Shown here in pieces: positions 16,671 through 24,858 of a DNA stretch of 64,000 nt. This DNA is from Streptantibioticus parmotrematis (lineage in GTDB: Bacteria > Actinomycetota > Actinomycetes > Streptomycetales > Streptomycetaceae), in NCBI RefSeq assembly GCF_019890615.1, contig NZ_JAINVZ010000007.1, forward strand, positions 124,001 to 188,000, in the 5' to 3' direction. Made by a program: the position numbers and the translations under genes. Below the pieces are notes generated by a model. That model was not told the DNA's origin, did no database searches, and saw only the letters and a list, made by a program, of their open reading frames with translations. Within the stretch, counting starts at the first letter, position 1; every line of letters begins with the position of its first letter.

Positions 16671-19055
16671 ATGGCTGGAACGACCCGCACCCCGACCAAC
16701 CTGACCCAGGGCGCCAAGGCGGACGCCGGCATCGGCGCCTCCACGCTGCGCCCGGACGGCACGCTGAAGGTGACGGGGGAGTTCGCGTACTCCTCCGACA
16801 TGTGGCACGAGGACATGCTGTGGGGCTTCACCCTGCGCAGCCCGCACGCCCACGCCCGCATCCTGTCCGTCGACACCTCCGACGCGCTCGCGCAGGCCGG
16901 GGTGTACGCCGTGCTCACCCACGACGACCTGCCGACCGAGCACAAGAAGTACGGCCTGGAGTTCACCGACACCCCGGTGCTCGCCGACGGCGTCGTACGC
17001 CACCACGGCGAGCCGGTCGCCCTGGTCGCCGCCGACCACCCGGAGACCGCCCGCCGCGCCGCCGCCAAGATCAAGGTGGAGTACGAGGAGCTGCCCGTCG
17101 TCCACGACGAGGCCAGCGCCCTCGCCGAGGACGCGCCGCTCCTGCACCCGGGCCGCGACGACCACCACGCGCACGAGGTGCCGCACCCCAACATCGTCCA
17201 CCGCCAGCCGATCATCCGCGGCGACGCGAACGCCGCCGCGCGGCGCGCCGACGTGATCGTCACCGGCGAGTACGAGGTCGGCATGCAGGACCAGGCGTTC
17301 CTGGGCCCCGAGTCGGGCCTCGCGGTGCCCGGCGAGGACGGCGGCGTCGACCTGTACGTCGCCACCCAGTGGCTCCACTCCGACCTGCGGCAGATCGCCC
17401 CGGTCCTCGGGCTGCCCGAGGAGAAGGTGCGCATGACGCTCTCCGGCGTCGGCGGCGCGTTCGGCGGACGCGAGGACCTGTCGATGCAGATCCACGCCTG
17501 CCTGCTGGCGCTGCGCACCGGCAAGCCGGTCAAGATCGTCTACAACCGCTTCGAGTCCTTCTTCGGCCACGTCCACCGCCACCCGGCGAAGCTGTGGTAC
17601 GAGCACGGCGCCACCCGCGACGGCAAGCTCACCCACATGAAGTGCCGCATCGTGCTGGACGGCGGCGCCTACGCCTCCGCCTCCCCGGCCGTCGTCGGCA
17701 ACGCCTCCTCGCTCAGCGTCGGCCCCTACGTCATCGAGGACGTGGAGATCGAGGCCGTCGCCCTCTACACCAACAACCCGCCCTGCGGCGCCATGCGCGG
17801 CTTCGGCGCGGTCCAGGCGTGCTTCGCCTACGAGGCGCAGATGGACAAGGTCGCCGCCGAACTCGGCATGGACCCGGTCGAGTTCCGGCAGCTGAACGCG
17901 ATGACGCAGGGCACGATCATGCCCACCGGGCAGGTCGTGGACTCCCCGGCGCCCGTCGCCGAACTGCTGCGCCGCGTCAAGGCGTTGCCGCTGCCGCCCG
18001 AGAACCAGTGGGAGAGCGCGGGCCAGACCGCGGACGTGCGCGCCCTGCCCGGCGGGCTGTCCAACACCACGCACGGCGAAGGCGTGGTGCGCGGCGTGGG
18101 CTACGCGGTCGGCATCAAGAACGTCGGGTTCTCCGAGGGCTTCGACGACTACTCCACCGCCCGGGTGCGCCTTGAGGTCGTCGCGGGTGAACCGGTGGCC
18201 ACCGTGCACACCGCGATGGCCGAGGTCGGCCAGGGCGGCGTCACCGTCCACGCGCAGATCGCCCGCACCGAACTCGGCGTCCAGCAGGTCACCATCCACC
18301 CCGCCGACACCCAGGTCGGCTCCGCCGGATCGACCTCCGCGTCCCGCCAGACGTACATGACCGGCGGCGCGGTGAAGAACACCTGCGAGGCCGTGCGCGA
18401 CAAGGCGCTCCAGCTGGGCCGGCGCAGGTTCGGCACCTTCCACCCCGCGTGGGCCACCGCCGAACTGCTGCTGGAGGGCGGCAAGGTGGTCACCGACGGC
18501 GGCGAGGTGCTCGCCGACCTCGCCGACGTGCTCGGCGACGACGTGGTCGACCTGGAACTGGAGTTCCGGCACCGCCCCACCGAGGCGTTCGACATCGTCA
18601 CCGGCCAGGGCTTCGGCCACGTCCAGTACTCGTTCGCCGCGCACCGCGCGGTCGTGGAGGTGGACACCGAACTCGGTCTGGTGAAGGTGGTCGAACTCGC
18701 CTGCGCGCAGGACGTCGGCAAGGCGCTCAACCCGCTGTCGGTGGTCGGCCAGATCCAGGGCGGCACCACACAGGGACTGGGACTCGCGGTGATGGAGGAG
18801 ATCATCGTCGATCCCAAGTCGAAGGTGCGCAACCCCTCCTTCACCGACTACCTCATCCCGACCATCCTCGACACCCCGACCATCCCGGTCGACGTGCTCG
18901 AACTGGCCGACGACCACGCCCCGTACGGGCTGCGCGGCATCGGTGAGGCGCCGACGCTGTCGTCCACCCCGGCCGTGGTCTCCGCCATCCGCGCGGCGAC
19001 CGGCCTTGCCCTCAAGCGGGTGCCGGTGCGCCCCGAGCACATCACCGGCGTCTGA
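16671..19055 (+). CDS. xdhA: Xanthine dehydrogenase, molybdopterin subunit
   Basis: Catalytic subunit, 794 aa, oxidising hypoxanthine/xanthine to urate. The aldehyde oxidase/xanthine dehydrogenase a/b hammerhead (about 20-130) is followed by the Mo-binding domain. Visible Moco-contact loops are GGAFGGRED, PCGAMRGFGAVQACFAYE and QGGVTVHAQIARTELG. The catalytic Glu is in RGIGEAPTLSSTP near the C-terminus. Substrate (purine rather than CO or aldehyde) is inferred from the PucR, AzgA and XdhC neighbours. The ATG follows the Fe-S subunit stop after one base. Confidence 0.93.
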   Translation: MAGTTRTPTNLTQGAKADAGIGASTLRPDGTLKVTGEFAYSSDMWHEDMLWGFTLRSPHAHARILSVDTSDALAQAGVYAVLTHDDLPTEHKKYGLEFTDTPVLADGVVRHHGEPVALVAADHPETARRAAAKIKVEYEELPVVHDEASALAEDAPLLHPGRDDHHAHEVPHPNIVHRQPIIRGDANAAARRADVIVTGEYEVGMQDQAFLGPESGLAVPGEDGGVDLYVATQWLHSDLRQIAPVLGLPEEKVRMTLSGVGGAFGGREDLSMQIHACLLALRTGKPVKIVYNRFESFFGHVHRHPAKLWYEHGATRDGKLTHMKCRIVLDGGAYASASPAVVGNASSLSVGPYVIEDVEIEAVALYTNNPPCGAMRGFGAVQACFAYEAQMDKVAAELGMDPVEFRQLNAMTQGTIMPTGQVVDSPAPVAELLRRVKALPLPPENQWESAGQTADVRALPGGLSNTTHGEGVVRGVGYAVGIKNVGFSEGFDDYSTARVRLEVVAGEPVATVHTAMAEVGQGGVTVHAQIARTELGVQQVTIHPADTQVGSAGSTSASRQTYMTGGAVKNTCEAVRDKALQLGRRRFGTFHPAWATAELLLEGGKVVTDGGEVLADLADVLGDDVVDLELEFRHRPTEAFDIVTGQGFGHVQYSFAAHRAVVEVDTELGLVKVVELACAQDVGKALNPLSVVGQIQGGTTQGLGLAVMEEIIVDPKSKVRNPSFTDYLIPTILDTPTIPVDVLELADDHAPYGLRGIGEAPTLSSTPAVVSAIRAATGLALKRVPVRPEHITGV

Positions 19056-19091
19056 CCCCGGCGGCGCCGCCCACGGTGCCGCCCAGCAGCT

Positions 19092-19136
19092 CCGGGCGGC
19101 GGTCGCGGATCTCGTCCCTTTCCGCCCGCCGCCCGG
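19092..19136. terminator. Hairpin after the xdh subunit genes
   Basis: Perfect 11-bp arms CCGGGCGGCGG and CCGCCGCCCGG around a 23-nt loop, 37 nt after the xdhA stop and 126 nt before the permease start. It may be a terminator or attenuator separating the enzyme genes from the permease. Confidence 0.45.
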
Positions 19137-19262
19137 TACGGCCGTCCCCCACCCTCTGGCCGAGCAGTACCCGTTCGCCTCGGGCCGTCCCCCGGGTCGT
19201 GCGCATCCCAAATCCCGTGCCGCAGAGCGCGGGTGTCCCTGTGAACCTTGGGAGTTGCACCC

Positions 19263-20714
19263 ATGACCCAGTCGCAAATCGAGCCGCCGGTGGTCGCGGA
19301 GGACGCCGGAGACGGCACACGCCAGCCCGCGGGCCGCTCCTGGCTCGATCGTTACTTCCACATCTCCGACAGAAGTTCGACGGTCGCCCGCGAAGTCCGC
19401 GGTGGTCTGACGACCTTCATGGCGATGGCGTACATCCTGCTGCTCAACCCCGTACTGCTCTCCGTTCCCGATGTGAACGGTCACCGCCTGCCGCACGCCG
19501 CGCTCATCACGGCGACCGCGCTGGGCGGCGCCGTGACCACGTTGCTGATGGGATTCGTCGGAAAGGTCCCGCTCGCGCTCGCCGCGGGACTGAGCGTCGC
19601 CGGGGTGGTCTCCACCCAGGTGGCCCCGGAGATGACCTGGCCGCAGGCGATGGGGATGTGCGTCATCTACGGCGCCGTCATCGTGCTGCTGGTGGTCTCC
19701 GGGCTGCGCGAGGCGGTGATGAACGCGATACCGCTGCCGCTCAAGCACGGCATCACCGTCGGCATCGGCATGTTCATCTCGCTCATCGGCCTGGTCAACG
19801 CGGGCTTCATCGGCAAGGGCGACCCGGTGACGCTCGGCACGGGCGGGCACCTGACCGGCTGGCCGGTGCTGGTGTTCTGCGTGACGCTGCTGACCATCTT
19901 CATGCTCCAGGCCCGCAACGTGCCCGGTGCCATCCTCATCGGCATCGTCTCCGGCACCGTGCTGGCCGCGGTCCTCCAGGCCGTCGGCGCCACCCACGCC
20001 AAGGACTGGGGCCTCAACGTCCCGGCCCTGCCGCACAACCCGGTCTCCATGCCCGACTTCTCGCTCTTCGGCCACGTCGCGTTCGGCGGCTGGGGCAAGA
20101 TCGGCGGGATGACGATCGGGGTGATCGTCTTCACCCTCGTGCTGGCCGGGTTCTTCGACGCGATGGCCACCATCATCGGCGTCGGCACCGAGGCCGGACT
20201 CGCCGACTCCCAGGGCCGCATGCCGGGCCTGAGCAAGGCACTGTTCATCGACGGCGCCGGCGGCATGATCGGCGGTGCGGTCGGCGGCTCGGGACAGACG
20301 GTCTTCATCGAGTCCGCGACCGGGGTCGGCGAGGGCGCGCGCACCGGCCTGTCCAGCGTGATCACCGGCCTGCTGTTCGCCGCGGCGCTGTTCTTCACCC
20401 CCGTCGCCTCGATCGTGCCCGGCCAGGCGGCCGCCGCCGCGCTGGTCGTCATCGGCTCGATGATGATGACCAACGTCCGGCACATCGACTGGACCGACCG
20501 CTCGGTGTCGATCCCGGTCTTCCTCACCGTCGCCCTGATGCCCTTCACCTACGGCATCACCCCCGGCGTCGGCGCGGGCGTCATCTCCTACTGCGCCATC
20601 AAGGGCGCCCAGGGCAAGTGGCGCGAGCCCAGCGTCTTGATGTGGATCCTGTCCGTCGTCTTCGTCGTGTACTTCGCCCTCAACCCGATCCAGAGCTGGC
20701 TCGGGGTCCACTGA
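19263..20714 (+). CDS. NCS2-family purine permease (AzgA type)
   Basis: Proton-coupled purine importer of 483 aa with about 12-14 membrane segments. It belongs to the AzgA-like branch (hypoxanthine/guanine/adenine), not the xanthine/uracil branch. Signs are REVRGGLTTFMAMAYILLLNP at the N-terminus, FFDAMATIIGVGTEAGL, and the signature GQTVFIESATGVGEGARTGL. The ATG at 19263 has GGGAG 8 nt upstream. It lies between xdhA and xdhC on the same strand, so it probably feeds purine bases to the dehydrogenase. A second, different permease occurs at 47807-49192. Confidence 0.9.
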   Translation: MTQSQIEPPVVAEDAGDGTRQPAGRSWLDRYFHISDRSSTVAREVRGGLTTFMAMAYILLLNPVLLSVPDVNGHRLPHAALITATALGGAVTTLLMGFVGKVPLALAAGLSVAGVVSTQVAPEMTWPQAMGMCVIYGAVIVLLVVSGLREAVMNAIPLPLKHGITVGIGMFISLIGLVNAGFIGKGDPVTLGTGGHLTGWPVLVFCVTLLTIFMLQARNVPGAILIGIVSGTVLAAVLQAVGATHAKDWGLNVPALPHNPVSMPDFSLFGHVAFGGWGKIGGMTIGVIVFTLVLAGFFDAMATIIGVGTEAGLADSQGRMPGLSKALFIDGAGGMIGGAVGGSGQTVFIESATGVGEGARTGLSSVITGLLFAAALFFTPVASIVPGQAAAAALVVIGSMMMTNVRHIDWTDRSVSIPVFLTVALMPFTYGITPGVGAGVISYCAIKGAQGKWREPSVLMWILSVVFVVYFALNPIQSWLGVH

Positions 20715-20757
20715 CCCCGTCCGGTTCACGCAGCCCTGTCAAGGGAGTTGGCACATC

Positions 20758-21900
20758 ATGCTGGACATCGCTGACGAGTTGCGCCGCTGGTACGCGGCCG
20801 GACGGCCGTTCGCCGTCGCGACCGTGGTGGCGACCGGTGGCAGCGCGCCCCGCCAGCCCGGCGCGGCGCTCGCCGTCGACGCCGAGGGCCGTGCGATCGG
20901 CAGCGTGTCCGGCGGATGTGTGGAGGGCGCGGTCTACGAACTGTGCCGGGAGGCCCTGGAGAGCGGCACCCCGGTACTGGAGACCTTCGGGTACTCCGAC
21001 GAGGACGCCTTCGCGGTCGGCCTGACCTGCGGAGGCGTCATCGACATCTTCGTCCAGCGGGTGGACCCGGCCGCCATGCCGGAGTTCGGCGCCGCGCTGG
21101 ACGCGGCGGGGGAGGGGGAGCCGGTCGCGGTCGCCCGGGTCGTCAAGGGCCCGGGCGGTCTGCTGGGCTCGGCGCTCGTCGTCCCCTCCGGGGAGAAGGA
21201 CGGCCAAGGGGGCTTCGGTGACGCGGAGTTGGACGCCACCGTGCGCGCCGAGGCCGCCGCCATGCTGGACGGCGGACGCACCGGCACCATCGAGGTCGGC
21301 GCGGACGGCAGCCGCTGTGGCGAGCCGTTGACACTGCTGGTCGAGTGCCGCGTCCCCGCACCGCGCATGCTGGTGTTCGGCGCCATCGACTTCGCGGCGG
21401 CCGTGGTGCGCATCGGGACGTTCCTGGGCTACCGGGTCACCGTGTGCGACGCCCGTCCGGTGTTCGCCACCGCGGCCCGCTTCCCGCAGGCCGACGAGGT
21501 GGTGGTCGACTGGCCGCACCGCTACCTCGACTCCCAGACACTGGACGCCCGCAGCGTGCTGTGCGTGCTCACCCACGACGCCAAGTTCGACATCCCGCTG
21601 CTGGAGCGGGCGTTGCGGCTGCCGGTGGCTTACGTCGGGGCCATGGGATCGCGCCGCACCCATCTGGACCGGCTGGAGCGGCTGCGCGACGTCGGCCTGA
21701 CCGAGCTGGAGCTGAACCGCCTGCGCTCCCCGATCGGCCTGGACCTGGGCGCCCGCACCCCGGAGGAGACCGCGCTGTCCATCGCCGCCGAGATCGTCGC
21801 CCACCGGCGCGGCGGCTCCGGCGCCCCGCTCACCGGCGCGCACACCCCCATCCACCACGACACCGGACGCGGCCGCACCCGGGTGGGATCGGCGGCCTGA
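20758..21900 (+). CDS. xdhC: XdhC-family molybdenum cofactor maturation factor
   Basis: Chaperone of 380 aa that in studied bacteria binds molybdenum cofactor and promotes its sulfuration and insertion into xanthine dehydrogenase. It is not an enzyme subunit. The N-terminal XdhC/CoxI domain has ATVVATGGSAPRQPGA and GSVSGGCVEGAVYE (conserved Cys). The C-terminal Rossmann-like domain carries VFGAIDFAAAVVRIG and VGAMGSRRTHLDRLERL. AGGGAG precedes the ATG at 20758. It is the last gene of the xdh block and converges on the monooxygenase gene with 28 nt between them. Confidence 0.93.
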   Translation: MLDIADELRRWYAAGRPFAVATVVATGGSAPRQPGAALAVDAEGRAIGSVSGGCVEGAVYELCREALESGTPVLETFGYSDEDAFAVGLTCGGVIDIFVQRVDPAAMPEFGAALDAAGEGEPVAVARVVKGPGGLLGSALVVPSGEKDGQGGFGDAELDATVRAEAAAMLDGGRTGTIEVGADGSRCGEPLTLLVECRVPAPRMLVFGAIDFAAAVVRIGTFLGYRVTVCDARPVFATAARFPQADEVVVDWPHRYLDSQTLDARSVLCVLTHDAKFDIPLLERALRLPVAYVGAMGSRRTHLDRLERLRDVGLTELELNRLRSPIGLDLGARTPEETALSIAAEIVAHRRGGSGAPLTGAHTPIHHDTGRGRTRVGSAA

Positions 21901-21928: not shown

Positions 21929-23083
21929 TCAGCGGTAGTTGAGCTCGGCCAGCTCGGTGGCGAACTTGGTGCGGAACGACGGGACGCGGCCCAGCAACGG
22001 CAGCAGCGTCCCGCGGGCCACCCGGCCGCCCACGCCGCGCAGCCCGGCGAAACGCGTCAGGCGGTCGGTGAACGCCACCACCCGCTCGGCGACCGGCCGC
22101 CGCAGCGCCTCGTAGGTGTCCACGCGGTCCTCGGCGATCGCCCGGCCCAGCGCGTGGCCGTCCTGGATACCGGTGTTCATGCCCTGGCCGCCCGCCGGGC
22201 TGTGCACGTGCGCCGCGTCGCCCGCCAACAGCAGCCGTCCGGCCTGGTAGCGGTCGGCGACGCGGTGGTGCACCCGGAAGCGCGAGGACCACCGCACCTC
22301 CTCGATCCGCAGCTGTCCCGGCACCCGCTCGTCCATCACCCGTTGCAGGAAGGCGAGATCGGGTCGCGCGGGCGCCTCGTCCACCGTCGCCACCACGCGG
22401 AACCGGTCACCGGGCAGCGGCGCGACCAGCGCGACGCCCTTCTCGTGCAGCAGCAGCGCCACCGTCTCGCGCCCCGGCGCCCACCGCGCGCGCACGTCCG
22501 CCAGCACGTAGGACTCCCCGTACGATCCGCCGGGGAAGCCGATGCCGGCCGCCTCGCGCACCACGCTGTGCATCCCGTCGGCGCCCACCGCGTACGCGGC
22601 GCGCAGGGTCTCGCCGGTGGCCATGGTGAGCGTGACGCCCGACTCGTCCTGGACCACGCCCGCCACCTCGTACGGCCGGTGCACGTCGCCGCCCGCCTGC
22701 CGCAGCGTCTCCAGCAGCACGGCCTCGGTCGTGTCCTGCGGCACCAGCAGCGCGTACGGGAACGGCGTCGCGAGTCCCGCGAACGGCACGTCCAGCAGCT
22801 GCCGGGTGCCCTCCCGGATGCTGAAGCGGTCCACCGTGAGTCCCCGGGACGTCAGCTCCTTCGCCGCGCCCAGGGTGTCCAGCACCTCCAGGGTGCGGGC
22901 GTGGACCACGGCGGCGCGCGAGGTGTTGGCGCCCTCCGCGAGCCGGTCGAGCAGGACGAAGTCGACCCCGGCCCGGGTCAGGGTGAGGGCCAGCGCGAGC
23001 CCGGTGGGCCCGGCGCCGACGATGGCGACCTCGGTGCGCTCCGGCAGCGCGGGGCGGGCGGCGGCGTGTGCGGCGGTGTCCAT
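21929..23083 (-). CDS. FAD-dependent monooxygenase (aromatic hydroxylase type)
   Basis: Class A flavoprotein monooxygenase, 384 aa. It has the FAD-binding GxGxxG (VAIVGAGPTGLALALTL), the DG motif (VGADGMHSVVREAAG) and the GD motif (RLLLAGDAAHVHSPAGGQGMN). It is shorter than PgaE/MhpA or rifampicin monooxygenases because the C-terminal thioredoxin-like domain is missing. The substrate is unknown; a phenolic or quinone compound is likely. The ATG at 23083 has AAAGGGGGC just upstream. The divergent TetR gene and five CAAC-N4-GTTG operators between them indicate substrate-induced control. Confidence 0.87.
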   Translation of the reverse strand: MDTAAHAAARPALPERTEVAIVGAGPTGLALALTLTRAGVDFVLLDRLAEGANTSRAAVVHARTLEVLDTLGAAKELTSRGLTVDRFSIREGTRQLLDVPFAGLATPFPYALLVPQDTTEAVLLETLRQAGGDVHRPYEVAGVVQDESGVTLTMATGETLRAAYAVGADGMHSVVREAAGIGFPGGSYGESYVLADVRARWAPGRETVALLLHEKGVALVAPLPGDRFRVVATVDEAPARPDLAFLQRVMDERVPGQLRIEEVRWSSRFRVHHRVADRYQAGRLLLAGDAAHVHSPAGGQGMNTGIQDGHALGRAIAEDRVDTYEALRRPVAERVVAFTDRLTRFAGLRGVGGRVARGTLLPLLGRVPSFRTKFATELAELNYR

Positions 23084-23106
23084 GGCGGTGCCCCCTTTCG
23101 TGATGC

Positions 23107-23201
23107 CAACGGTTGTTGGCCAACGTCTGTTGTCATGGTGCGCGGAGTGCGGCCCTGAAGTCAACAGGTGTTGGCCCACGGGTGTTGGCCTACAATCGTT
23201 G
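23107..23201. promoter_or_regulatory. Array of five CAAC-N4-GTTG operators (TetR / monooxygenase)
   Basis: Copies begin at 23107 (CCAACGGTTGTTGG, a perfect 5-4-5 dyad with flanks), 23121, 23162, 23176 and 23190. Spacing is exactly 14 bp within the pair and within the triplet. The copies at 23176 and 23190 each have one changed base in the left arm. The last copy overlaps TACAAT (23191-23196), a near-perfect -10 whose start site falls at the TetR GTG at 23204. Repressor bound here would block both promoters. Confidence 0.85.
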
Positions 23202-23203
23202 AC

Positions 23204-23803
23204 GTGAAGACGACCGACGAGAACCAGCCACTCGCGGGGGCCCAGGACGCGGACGGGGCCCGGCGCTCGGACCGCACGCGCGCCGCGATCCTGCGGGCCG
23301 CCCGTGAGCGCTTCGCCGAGCACGGTTTCGAACGCACCACCATCCGCGCGGTCGCCGCCGACGCGGACATCGACCCGTCGATGGTCATGCGCTACTTCGG
23401 CACCAAGGAACGGCTCTTCGACGCCGCGCTCGACATCGACCTGCGCCTGCCCGACCTGACCGCCGTGCCCCTGGCCGACCTGCCCGAGCTGTTGGTGCGG
23501 CACTTCCTCGACCGCTGGGAGAGCGACCCGCCGGACGACGGGCTGCTGGTGCTGCTGCGCTCGGCGGTCACGAACGAGCGCGCCGCCCAGCGCACCCGGG
23601 AGATGTTCGCCGCGCAGGTCGCCCCCGCGGTGACCGAGGTGCTGCCGCCGCGGGCCGCGGCCCGCATCGGGCTGGTCTCCGCCCAGCTGCTCGGGCTGGC
23701 CCTCACCCGCTACCTGCTGCGCATGCCCGCGGTGACGGAGCTGACGAAGGAGGAGATCGTGGCGACGCTCGCCCCCGCGATCGCCCGCACGCTGGGGGTG
23801 TGA
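23204..23803 (+). CDS. TetR-family repressor
   Basis: One-component regulator, 199 aa. The HTH spans about 25-70 (RAAILRAARERFAEHGFERTTIRAVAADADIDPSMVMRYFGTKERLF split across helices 1-4), with the typical YFGTKERLF cap. The C-terminal ligand domain is Leu-rich and lacks a recognised motif. The GTG at 23204 starts 7 nt after TACAAT and has no ribosome site, so the mRNA is probably leaderless. It almost certainly represses itself and the divergent flavin monooxygenase through the five-copy operator array. Confidence 0.9.
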   Translation: MKTTDENQPLAGAQDADGARRSDRTRAAILRAARERFAEHGFERTTIRAVAADADIDPSMVMRYFGTKERLFDAALDIDLRLPDLTAVPLADLPELLVRHFLDRWESDPPDDGLLVLLRSAVTNERAAQRTREMFAAQVAPAVTEVLPPRAAARIGLVSAQLLGLALTRYLLRMPAVTELTKEEIVATLAPAIARTLGV

Positions 23804-23894: not shown

Positions 23895-24800
23895 TTACGG
23901 CAGCAGGCCCGCCCGGCGCGCCGCCACGACCGCCTCCAGCCGGGTGTGCGCCCCCAACTTCCGCATCGCCGACCGCAGATACGCCTTCACCGTCTCCGGA
24001 CGCAGCCCCAGCCGGTCCGCCACGGCGGCGTTGGTGGCACCCCGCGACACGCACGAGAGCACGTCCACCTCGCGCGGCGACAGGCCCACGGCGCCGTCTC
24101 CGCGCGCCGTCCCGCCGCAGGCGCTCTCCAACCGGGCGCAGGCGGCGAGCAGTTCGTCCCGCAGGCGCACGTCCGGCACGTCGTGCGCCAGCGTCCGCAG
24201 GTGCGCGTGGGCGGCGCGCACCTCCTCCCAGGCCGCCGGGGCCGCCGCCCGCAACCGGTCCGCGTCGTCGCGCGCCGCCAGCGACCGCTCCAGCTCCTGC
24301 GCGGCCCCCACGGCCGCCGTCAGCGCCCGGTCGCCCAGGGCCGCGGGCTCGCGCAGCGCCGCGTAGAGCACCGCGCGCACCCGACGCCGCACCACCACCG
24401 GCACGGCCAGCACCGACCGCAGGCCCTCGGCGGCCACCGCCGCGTCGTACTCGTGGCTGATCGTGCGGGACGCCCGGTAGTCGGTGACCGCGACCGGCCG
24501 GGCCAGCGCGATCGCCTTGCCGCCCAGCCCGCTGCCCGAGCTGATCGCCAGCCCGCGCAGCGCCCGGGTGGTGGTGCCGACGAGCTGCGAGATCCGGAAC
24601 CCGGCGTCACCGCCGCCGGGCGTGCGGGCCGCCGCCGGGGCGTCGTCGCCGGTCAGGCCGCCGAACGCGACGGGCAGGCCGCAGGAGTGCGTCAGGGCGG
24701 CCAGCGCCTCGCGGACGTCGGCGGCCTCGCCCCGGGCCCGCCCGGTCGTGCCGTCGGCGGCCTCGCCCTCGGCCCGTCCGGCCGTGCCTTCGATGCGCAT
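23895..24800 (-). CDS. LuxR-type regulator with GAF-like sensor domain
   Basis: Transcription factor of 301 aa. Residues about 35-180 look like a GAF domain ([10 protein letters not shown] ... [20 protein letters not shown] ... [20 protein letters not shown]). A helical linker and a C-terminal LuxR/NarL HTH follow (about 235-301: [39 protein letters not shown]). This layout is common beside Streptomyces acyl-CoA synthetase or dehydrogenase genes. The ATG at 24800 has GGAGG 5 nt upstream, better than the in-frame start at 24842. It is divergent from the acyl-CoA synthetase gene with a 20-bp palindrome between them. Confidence 0.87.
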
Positions 24801-24838
24801 GGCTGCCTCCCGGCCCCGGTCCGCGACGCTCGCGCGGG

Positions 24839-24858
24839 CCACCCCCGTTCGGGGGTGG
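24839..24858. promoter_or_regulatory. 20-bp palindromic operator (LuxR / acyl-CoA synthetase)
   Basis: Perfect 8-bp arms CCACCCCC and GGGGGTGG around GTTC, between the divergent LuxR-type regulator and acyl-CoA synthetase genes. The core ACCCCC-GTWC-GGGGGT recurs at 36680-36695, upstream of the second AMP-binding synthetase. Confidence 0.7.

Follow-up and report, generated by a model that had tools for sequence, protein, structure and literature searches.

A conserved array of 14-bp-spaced palindromes between the genes for a TetR-family regulator and a flavin monooxygenase in Streptantibioticus parmotrematis and its orthologous regions

Genes and palindromes at the locus

The window, that is, the whole stretch of 64,000 nucleotides of Streptantibioticus parmotrematis DNA that was analysed, contains divergent genes for a class A FAD monooxygenase and a TetR-family regulator, with an array of short palindromes between them. 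This setting, described as such in the initial annotation, is borne out by Pfam matches of the two proteins to FAD_binding_3 and to TetR_N and TetR_C_16, respectively. The TetR protein scores 49.7 bits for TetR_N and 96.1 bits for TetR_C_16, both above cut-off, and its AlphaFold model is all-helical (pLDDT 89.8), with 2guh and 2np3 as the nearest solved folds, both titled merely as TetR-family regulators. A helix-turn-helix stretch, DPSMVMRY (D57-Y64), is invariant across 32 aligned orthologues. The longest open frame of the monooxygenase runs from 23503, and the ATG at 23083 aligns with residue 1 of the protein in a sister genome. Just before the monooxygenase, positions 16671-21900 encode a molybdopterin-binding protein of the xanthine dehydrogenase/aldehyde oxidase type, a Xan_ur_permease transporter and XdhC (by Pfam), and downstream of tetR a LuxR-type regulator with a GAF domain lies on the minus strand at 23898-24842, RamA-like with a score under the NCBIfam cut-off.

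The features of the locus are given below in order of position, the 16-bp limits of the units in the window being taken from a dyad that was extended by the comparison of orthologues.

21929..23083, minus strand: class A FAD monooxygenase, 384 aa (FAD_binding_3, 240 bits)
23105..23120: putative operator unit 1, a 16-bp palindrome; core CAACGGTTGTTG at 23107-23118; monooxygenase-side block
23119..23134: putative operator unit 2; core CAACGTCTGTTG at 23121-23132; 2 bp in common with unit 1
23135..23140, minus strand: candidate monooxygenase -10, CACCAT; 18-bp spacer; weak match, 3 of 6
23159..23164, minus strand: predicted monooxygenase -35, TTGACT; overlaps unit 3
23160..23175: putative operator unit 3; core CAACAGGTGTTG at 23162-23173; outer unit of the tetR-side block
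23174..23189: putative operator unit 4; core CCACGGGTGTTG at 23176-23187; one mismatch
23188..23203: putative operator unit 5; core CTACAATCGTTG at 23190-23201; one mismatch; stops right before the tetR start codon
23191..23196, plus strand: predicted tetR -10, TACAAT; within unit 5, 7 bases before the start codon
23204..23803, plus strand: TetR-family regulator, 199 aa (TetR_N, TetR_C_16); GTG start; longest open frame from 23168

A pattern scan of the window reproduced the coordinates, and the 14-bp spacing inside a pair and a triplet, that had first been noted. CAAC-N4-GTTG is exact at 23107, 23121 and 23162, and the remaining two of the five copies originally listed, at 23176 and 23190, each carry a single mismatch that had gone unmentioned. 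The start-to-start spacings along the array are 14, 41, 14 and 14, so that the units fall into two 14-bp blocks, a pair and a triplet, and do not form a single lattice of five. The continuous five-unit lattice of the earlier description is ruled out by the 41 bp between the blocks of the window and by the corresponding 40-48 bp in 72 two-block orthologous regions. The TACAAT at 23191-23196, the GTG at 23204 and the overlap of the last unit with the TACAAT are all present in the sequence as described.

By itself, the number of matches with at most one mismatch is unremarkable (15 in the window versus 14.4 expected). The three exact matches compare with a shuffle mean of 0.50, and three were reached in 4 of 100 shuffles. 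Five units within 95 bp compare with a largest cluster of three, seen once, in 300 dinucleotide-preserving shuffles of the window, and the three 14-bp pairs of the array with at most one such pair, again seen once, in 300 shuffles of that kind.

Units, layouts and promoters in orthologous regions

Orthologous loci were gathered by searching with the TetR protein, a procedure blind to the intergenic DNA. A match at 1e-35 was found in 178 of 394 family genomes, from which 30 loci were taken, and a TetR search of genome contigs supplied 55 more. Eight of the 92 loci (L001-L092) were dropped for having no match or one below 140 bits, namely the own-genome paralogues L002-L008 together with L092, and removal of the duplicates L038, L043 and L045 reduced the remaining 84 to 81 distinct regions. 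Absence of the array from close relatives carrying this gene pair, the outcome that the initial annotation had named as damaging, is not what is seen: an exact unit lies upstream of tetR in 79 of the 81 regions, and 73 possess at least one pair at 14 bp, leaving eight without such a pair among units of one mismatch or fewer. The regions hold 295 units and 137 14-bp pairs, compared with a mean of 4.8 units and no pairs in plain letter shuffles of the same regions. The two regions lacking a unit before tetR, L070 and L073 of Actinoplanes, have the monooxygenase and tetR in that order on the same strand, with units before the monooxygenase instead. The TetR tree spans the Streptomycetaceae, Nocardiaceae, Mycobacteriaceae, Pseudonocardiaceae, Micromonosporaceae and Streptosporangiaceae, and all 22 close orthologues of a class-wide sample, which partly repeats earlier loci, had a 14-bp pair.

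Within blocks, the interval between units is 14 bp in 137 cases, 28 bp in three and 13 bp in one. The 28-bp intervals mark a decayed middle unit whose register has been retained, and the 13-bp interval, in L065, is probably a chance match in a promoter. Distances between blocks vary from 40 to 48 bp in the 72 two-block regions, 41 bp (26 regions) and 44 bp (16 regions) being the most frequent; neighbouring distances of 29, 54 and 338 bp occur once each, in two odd regions.

Comparison of orthologues also redefines the unit itself. In 191 exact units, the left flank has G at -2 in 190 and C or T at -1 in all 191, the spacer begins with a purine in 187 and ends with T or C in 191, and the right flank has C at +13 in 178. 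Because the flanks are fixed as well, the site is a 16-bp palindrome, GYCAACRNNYGTTGRC, tiled neighbours of which have 2 bp in common, and what had been regarded as a short 12-bp dyad lengthens to an ordinary size. The sequence GTTGGCCAAC, which lies between units, was weighed as an alternative site and dismissed, since 15 of 16 single-unit blocks retain a whole CAAC-N4-GTTG site in the form of a complete GYCAACRNNYGTTGGC, the sixteenth (L065) being an off-register match; the CAAC-N4-GTTG dyad, and not GTTGGCCAAC, is therefore the site.

Layouts were scored as units on the monooxygenase side plus units on the tetR side, counting in-register units with three mismatches or fewer. Two plus two is the commonest arrangement (40 of 81 regions), followed by 3+2 and 1+2 (11 each), 2+3 as in the window (5), one block of two (5), 2+1 (3) and no block (2), with 1+2+2, 2+1+2, 6+3 and 4+3 found once each. 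Five copies, although first presented as the pattern, is thus not typical: the window and its sister genome stand one unit above the commonest layout, unit 4 being the additional 14-bp unit, and in several branches of the TetR tree the number of units shifts by whole 14-bp steps. The longest arrays, in L088 and L090, run to about six plus three and four plus three in-register units, decayed members included. The outermost units of these two layouts, with three mismatches, may be due to chance, as 3.6% of all positions pass the three-mismatch limit.

The array is interwoven with predicted promoters on both strands. Read on the monooxygenase strand, all 74 regions with two or more blocks have TTGAC[TAC], a putative -35, at the outer edge of the block on the tetR side; [TC]AnnnT follows at a spacer of 17 or 18 in 67 of these, and no other spacer length between 9 and 26 has it in more than four, the stricter TAnnnT serving as candidate -10 in just 31. 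The position of the -10 candidate in the window would place the start of monooxygenase transcription inside unit 2, in the monooxygenase-side block. On the other strand, TAnnnT precedes an in-frame start by exactly 7 nt in 75 of 81 tetR regions and, judged by eye, by 6 nt in three more (L011, L037 and L089); of the remainder, L070 and L073 lack an array before tetR, and L051 shows neither ATG nor GTG as an in-frame start. With a -10 so placed that the start site would fall on the start codon, tetR looks leaderless in the window and in most orthologues, in agreement with the apparently leaderless GTG first noted after the last unit. This unit opens with CTAC in 69 of 79 regions, with CAAC in five and with ATAC in five. 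CTAC creates TAC-N2-T, a -10, and the mismatch of unit 5 is accordingly a base shared with the promoter. Predicted -35 and -10 elements are thus written inside the predicted repressor sites, and sites and promoters are fused.

Units and regulator are also linked in their distribution. The exact tandem pair pattern occurs at a single place in the 7.4-Mb genome of the window, and, among 396 genomes sampled from the phylum, at five places in four genomes, all five adjoining a TetR/monooxygenase pair of the window's kind; a reversed-pattern control gave 0 throughout the matches listed for the 396 genomes. The units are kept beside TetR when the divergent partner differs, as in L036, where it is an MFS transporter by Pfam, in L044 and L023, with partner proteins 94 and 86% identical to that transporter, and in L069, where it is a short-chain dehydrogenase. 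In L039 (2085-4438), a monooxygenase is accompanied by a neighbouring pair of TetR paralogues (73 and 61% identical), and each of the three genes has units. Inspection by eye of the stretches upstream of the own-genome paralogues L002-L008 revealed no 14-bp row; upstream of L005, two palindromes of a different kind lie at a distance of about 69 bp. Eight less related TetR loci, those fetched from among the lower-scoring matches, offer a weak control: seven have no exact unit in the 260 bp scanned, and several of these genes seem by eye to lie close behind another gene. The eighth, L161, has two single exact units 44 bp apart, one on each side, with no tiling, and may represent a state before tiling arose.

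A wider regulon was considered and rejected. The stricter pattern YCAACRNNYGTTGR occurs at five places in the genome, two within the array and three as single copies on other contigs, with one match for the reversed-pattern control.

Comparison with other TetR-type repressors

The initial annotation viewed TetR operators as usually consisting of one or two palindromes, a generalization that needs qualification, because passages in the papers cited below already describe multi-site cases, among them EthR, SCO7222 and QacR. The array is most likely a tighter version of arrangements known for a few other TetR-type repressors. By analogy, the nearest precedent is EthR, for which a passage in PMC9210681 reports cooperative binding to a 55-bp operator as a homo-octamer, and part of PMC4482099 describes the motif as larger, more complex and multi-copy. 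As in the ethR/ethA pair, the regulator of the window is a TetR-type repressor divergent from a flavin monooxygenase, and CAAC/GTTG-like half-sites recur on a rigid step. EthR-like loci were found by a search for the EthR_C family, because the published EthR repeat with 2 mismatches was useless as a query (about 90-115 matches a strand per genome). In all five high-scoring EthR_C loci, from mycobacteria (L127-L131; L135 repeats L131 and is not counted), three TCRAC-N5-GTYGA units stand at exactly 20 bp, the first two exact and the third with 1-2 mismatches; six lower-scoring EthR_C loci contain no TCRAC-N5-GTYGA row. The gene divergent from ethR is FMO-like by Pfam in L128, the one locus of the five scanned. 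The two systems differ in detail, EthR sites having an N5 spacer, a 20-bp step, no overlap and a single block, whereas the array, which does not follow the TCRAC-N5-GTYGA pattern at 20 bp, consists of CAAC-N4-GTTG units that overlap at 14 bp in two blocks. The ligand domains also differ, EthR_C in EthR and TetR_C_16 in the TetR of the window, which has no EthR_C match at E<=0.001.

Repeated operators between a TetR-type repressor and a divergent monooxygenase are likewise found for SCO7222 and SCO7223 of Streptomyces coelicolor, where three operators, three gel-shift complexes and repression of the monooxygenase SCO7223 in a reporter assay are described in a part of PMC3511530. The SCO7222 operator, TGGAACGNCGTTCCA, forms discrete sites, in contrast to the tiled array of the window, and is absent from the array; three exact copies lie elsewhere in the same genome, on contig 26. 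Matches to TGGAACGNCGTTCCA occur in 14 of 150 genomes, and in six of these neighbouring exact copies, matched by motif alone, are 24-29 bp apart. On contig 26 (37298-37368, L113) the three matches follow an exact 28-bp step, twice 14, and the pairs in the five other genomes are 24-29 bp apart. QacR, CgmR and RolR are described in a passage of PMC9210681 as binding one composite palindromic operator as two dimers, a single composite operator as opposed to the extendable array of the window. In Streptomyces avermitilis, the TetR protein SAV576 regulates its own gene, and its bidirectional promoter region contains three 15-bp palindromes, according to a part of PMC3742746; its sites (consensus CCRTACRVYGTATGS) are separately protected, whereas those of the window are tiled. 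The differences in unit, step, overlap and ligand domain make the array a variant of known repeated TetR operators. Among the matches listed, titles and abstract openings in the open-access literature held no description of a 14-bp array, and the array sequence as a text string retrieved no title on TetR.

The proposed operator and its alternatives

Conservation, spacing, overlap with promoters and linkage to this TetR are demonstrated by the comparison of sequences, and everything, including the overlap of the last unit with the tetR -10, speaks for an operator array of several copies that belongs to the adjacent TetR gene, as originally suggested. It is with considerable confidence that the array can be read as the operator of an autoregulated TetR that would repress itself and the monooxygenase, be released by a ligand, and probably bind cooperatively. 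We infer that this TetR binds the units, one dimer per 16-bp palindrome GYCAACRNNYGTTGRC, with repression and ligand release as the consequences. Adjacent palindromes tiled at 14 bp share a GC step, and because 14 bp corresponds to 1.33 turns, successive dimers would be placed about 120 degrees apart round the DNA, an offset that could let them pack without clash. The tetR-side block would cover the tetR -10 up to the start codon, its outer edge doubling as the monooxygenase -35, and the other block would cover the predicted monooxygenase start site; these promoter positions argue for one regulator repressing both promoters, so that TetR would shut off its own gene and the monooxygenase together. 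Cooperativity between neighbouring dimers would probably make the switch sharp, and TetR would be freed by a small-molecule ligand, perhaps a molecule that the monooxygenase acts on, or else a toxic compound of aromatic or antibiotic-like character.

That neighbouring dimers bind cooperatively is itself favoured with somewhat less assurance. A rigid 14-bp step maintained over deep divergence fits contact between adjacent dimers, and the strict step within blocks, together with the drifting gap between them, suggests joint reading of adjacent units, for which dimer contact would be the simplest means; the 14-bp spacing could also arise from sharing of the GC step instead of protein contact. The number of units, from a single one to about six plus three in register, means that no fixed assembly is needed. 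Against the proposal stand the 1+2 layouts of 11 of 81 regions and the lack of register between blocks, the latter counting against one continuous filament; the weak monooxygenase -10 of the window, the TAnnnT in just 31 of 74 regions and the eight regions that lack a 14-bp pair also tell against it. Filament-like cooperative binding, as first suggested, therefore survives in part: the rigid step agrees with dimer contact, but an obligatory filament is disfavoured by the 15 single-unit whole sites and by L161. In its strongest form, in which TetR dimers would build a short three-fold helical filament nucleated at the promoter and growing by 14-bp units (one dimer per 14 bp, 1.33 turns and 120 degrees per step, and 42 bp per four turns), the idea is speculative and on balance doubtful.

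The main rival to cooperative tiling is mutual exclusion, whereby the 2 shared bp would bar dimers from adjacent operators and the array would merely raise local occupancy, with no cooperativity. The sharing itself is evident in the GC step (G at -2 in 190 and C at +13 in 178 of 191 units), and single-unit blocks are presumably functional alone, but if adjacent units were never occupied at the same time, it would be difficult to account for so strict a 14-bp step, in which indels are almost absent. The two sites of QacR overlap. Passages in PMC5895659 and PMC9210681 report that QacR occupies its operator as a pair of dimers, which also weighs against mutual exclusion, an unlikely account of the array overall. 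Less likely again is an origin of the 14-bp step in tandem duplication, a 14-bp unit having been copied with no selection acting on the spacing. Movement of unit number in whole 14-bp steps on several branches of the TetR tree, and the one extra unit in the window and its sister genome, are what duplication would produce; yet the letters of the spacers have diverged while the step stayed constant, and the blocks of these same regions have come to lie anywhere from 40 to 48 bp apart, so that duplication accounts for the birth of units and not for their retained step. That the sites mainly serve some DNA-binding protein other than this TetR is very improbable: CAAC/GTTG-like half-sites do serve other TetR proteins, such as EthR, but the units track this orthologue group through changes of partner and rearrangement, and less related TetR matches are, as the weak control above, without an exact unit in seven of eight cases. 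Finally, although each unit is a dyad able to pair in RNA, hairpins or an attenuator in leader transcripts can be given almost no credence, since tetR looks leaderless and its block would therefore not be transcribed as a leader, and the same block lies upstream of the predicted monooxygenase start.

Promoters with -35 and -10 elements inside predicted repressor sites are displayed by these regions. Since the number of units in fixed register ranges naturally from one to about six, and the repressors alongside are orthologous, the regions also offer a set of operators for direct study of cooperativity and unit number. The occurrence of rigidly stepped arrays, at 14 bp here and at 20 bp for EthR, suggests that they may be a recurring TetR guard of actinobacterial flavin monooxygenase genes. 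If the filament reading were true, the number of units would tune the steepness of induction over evolution.
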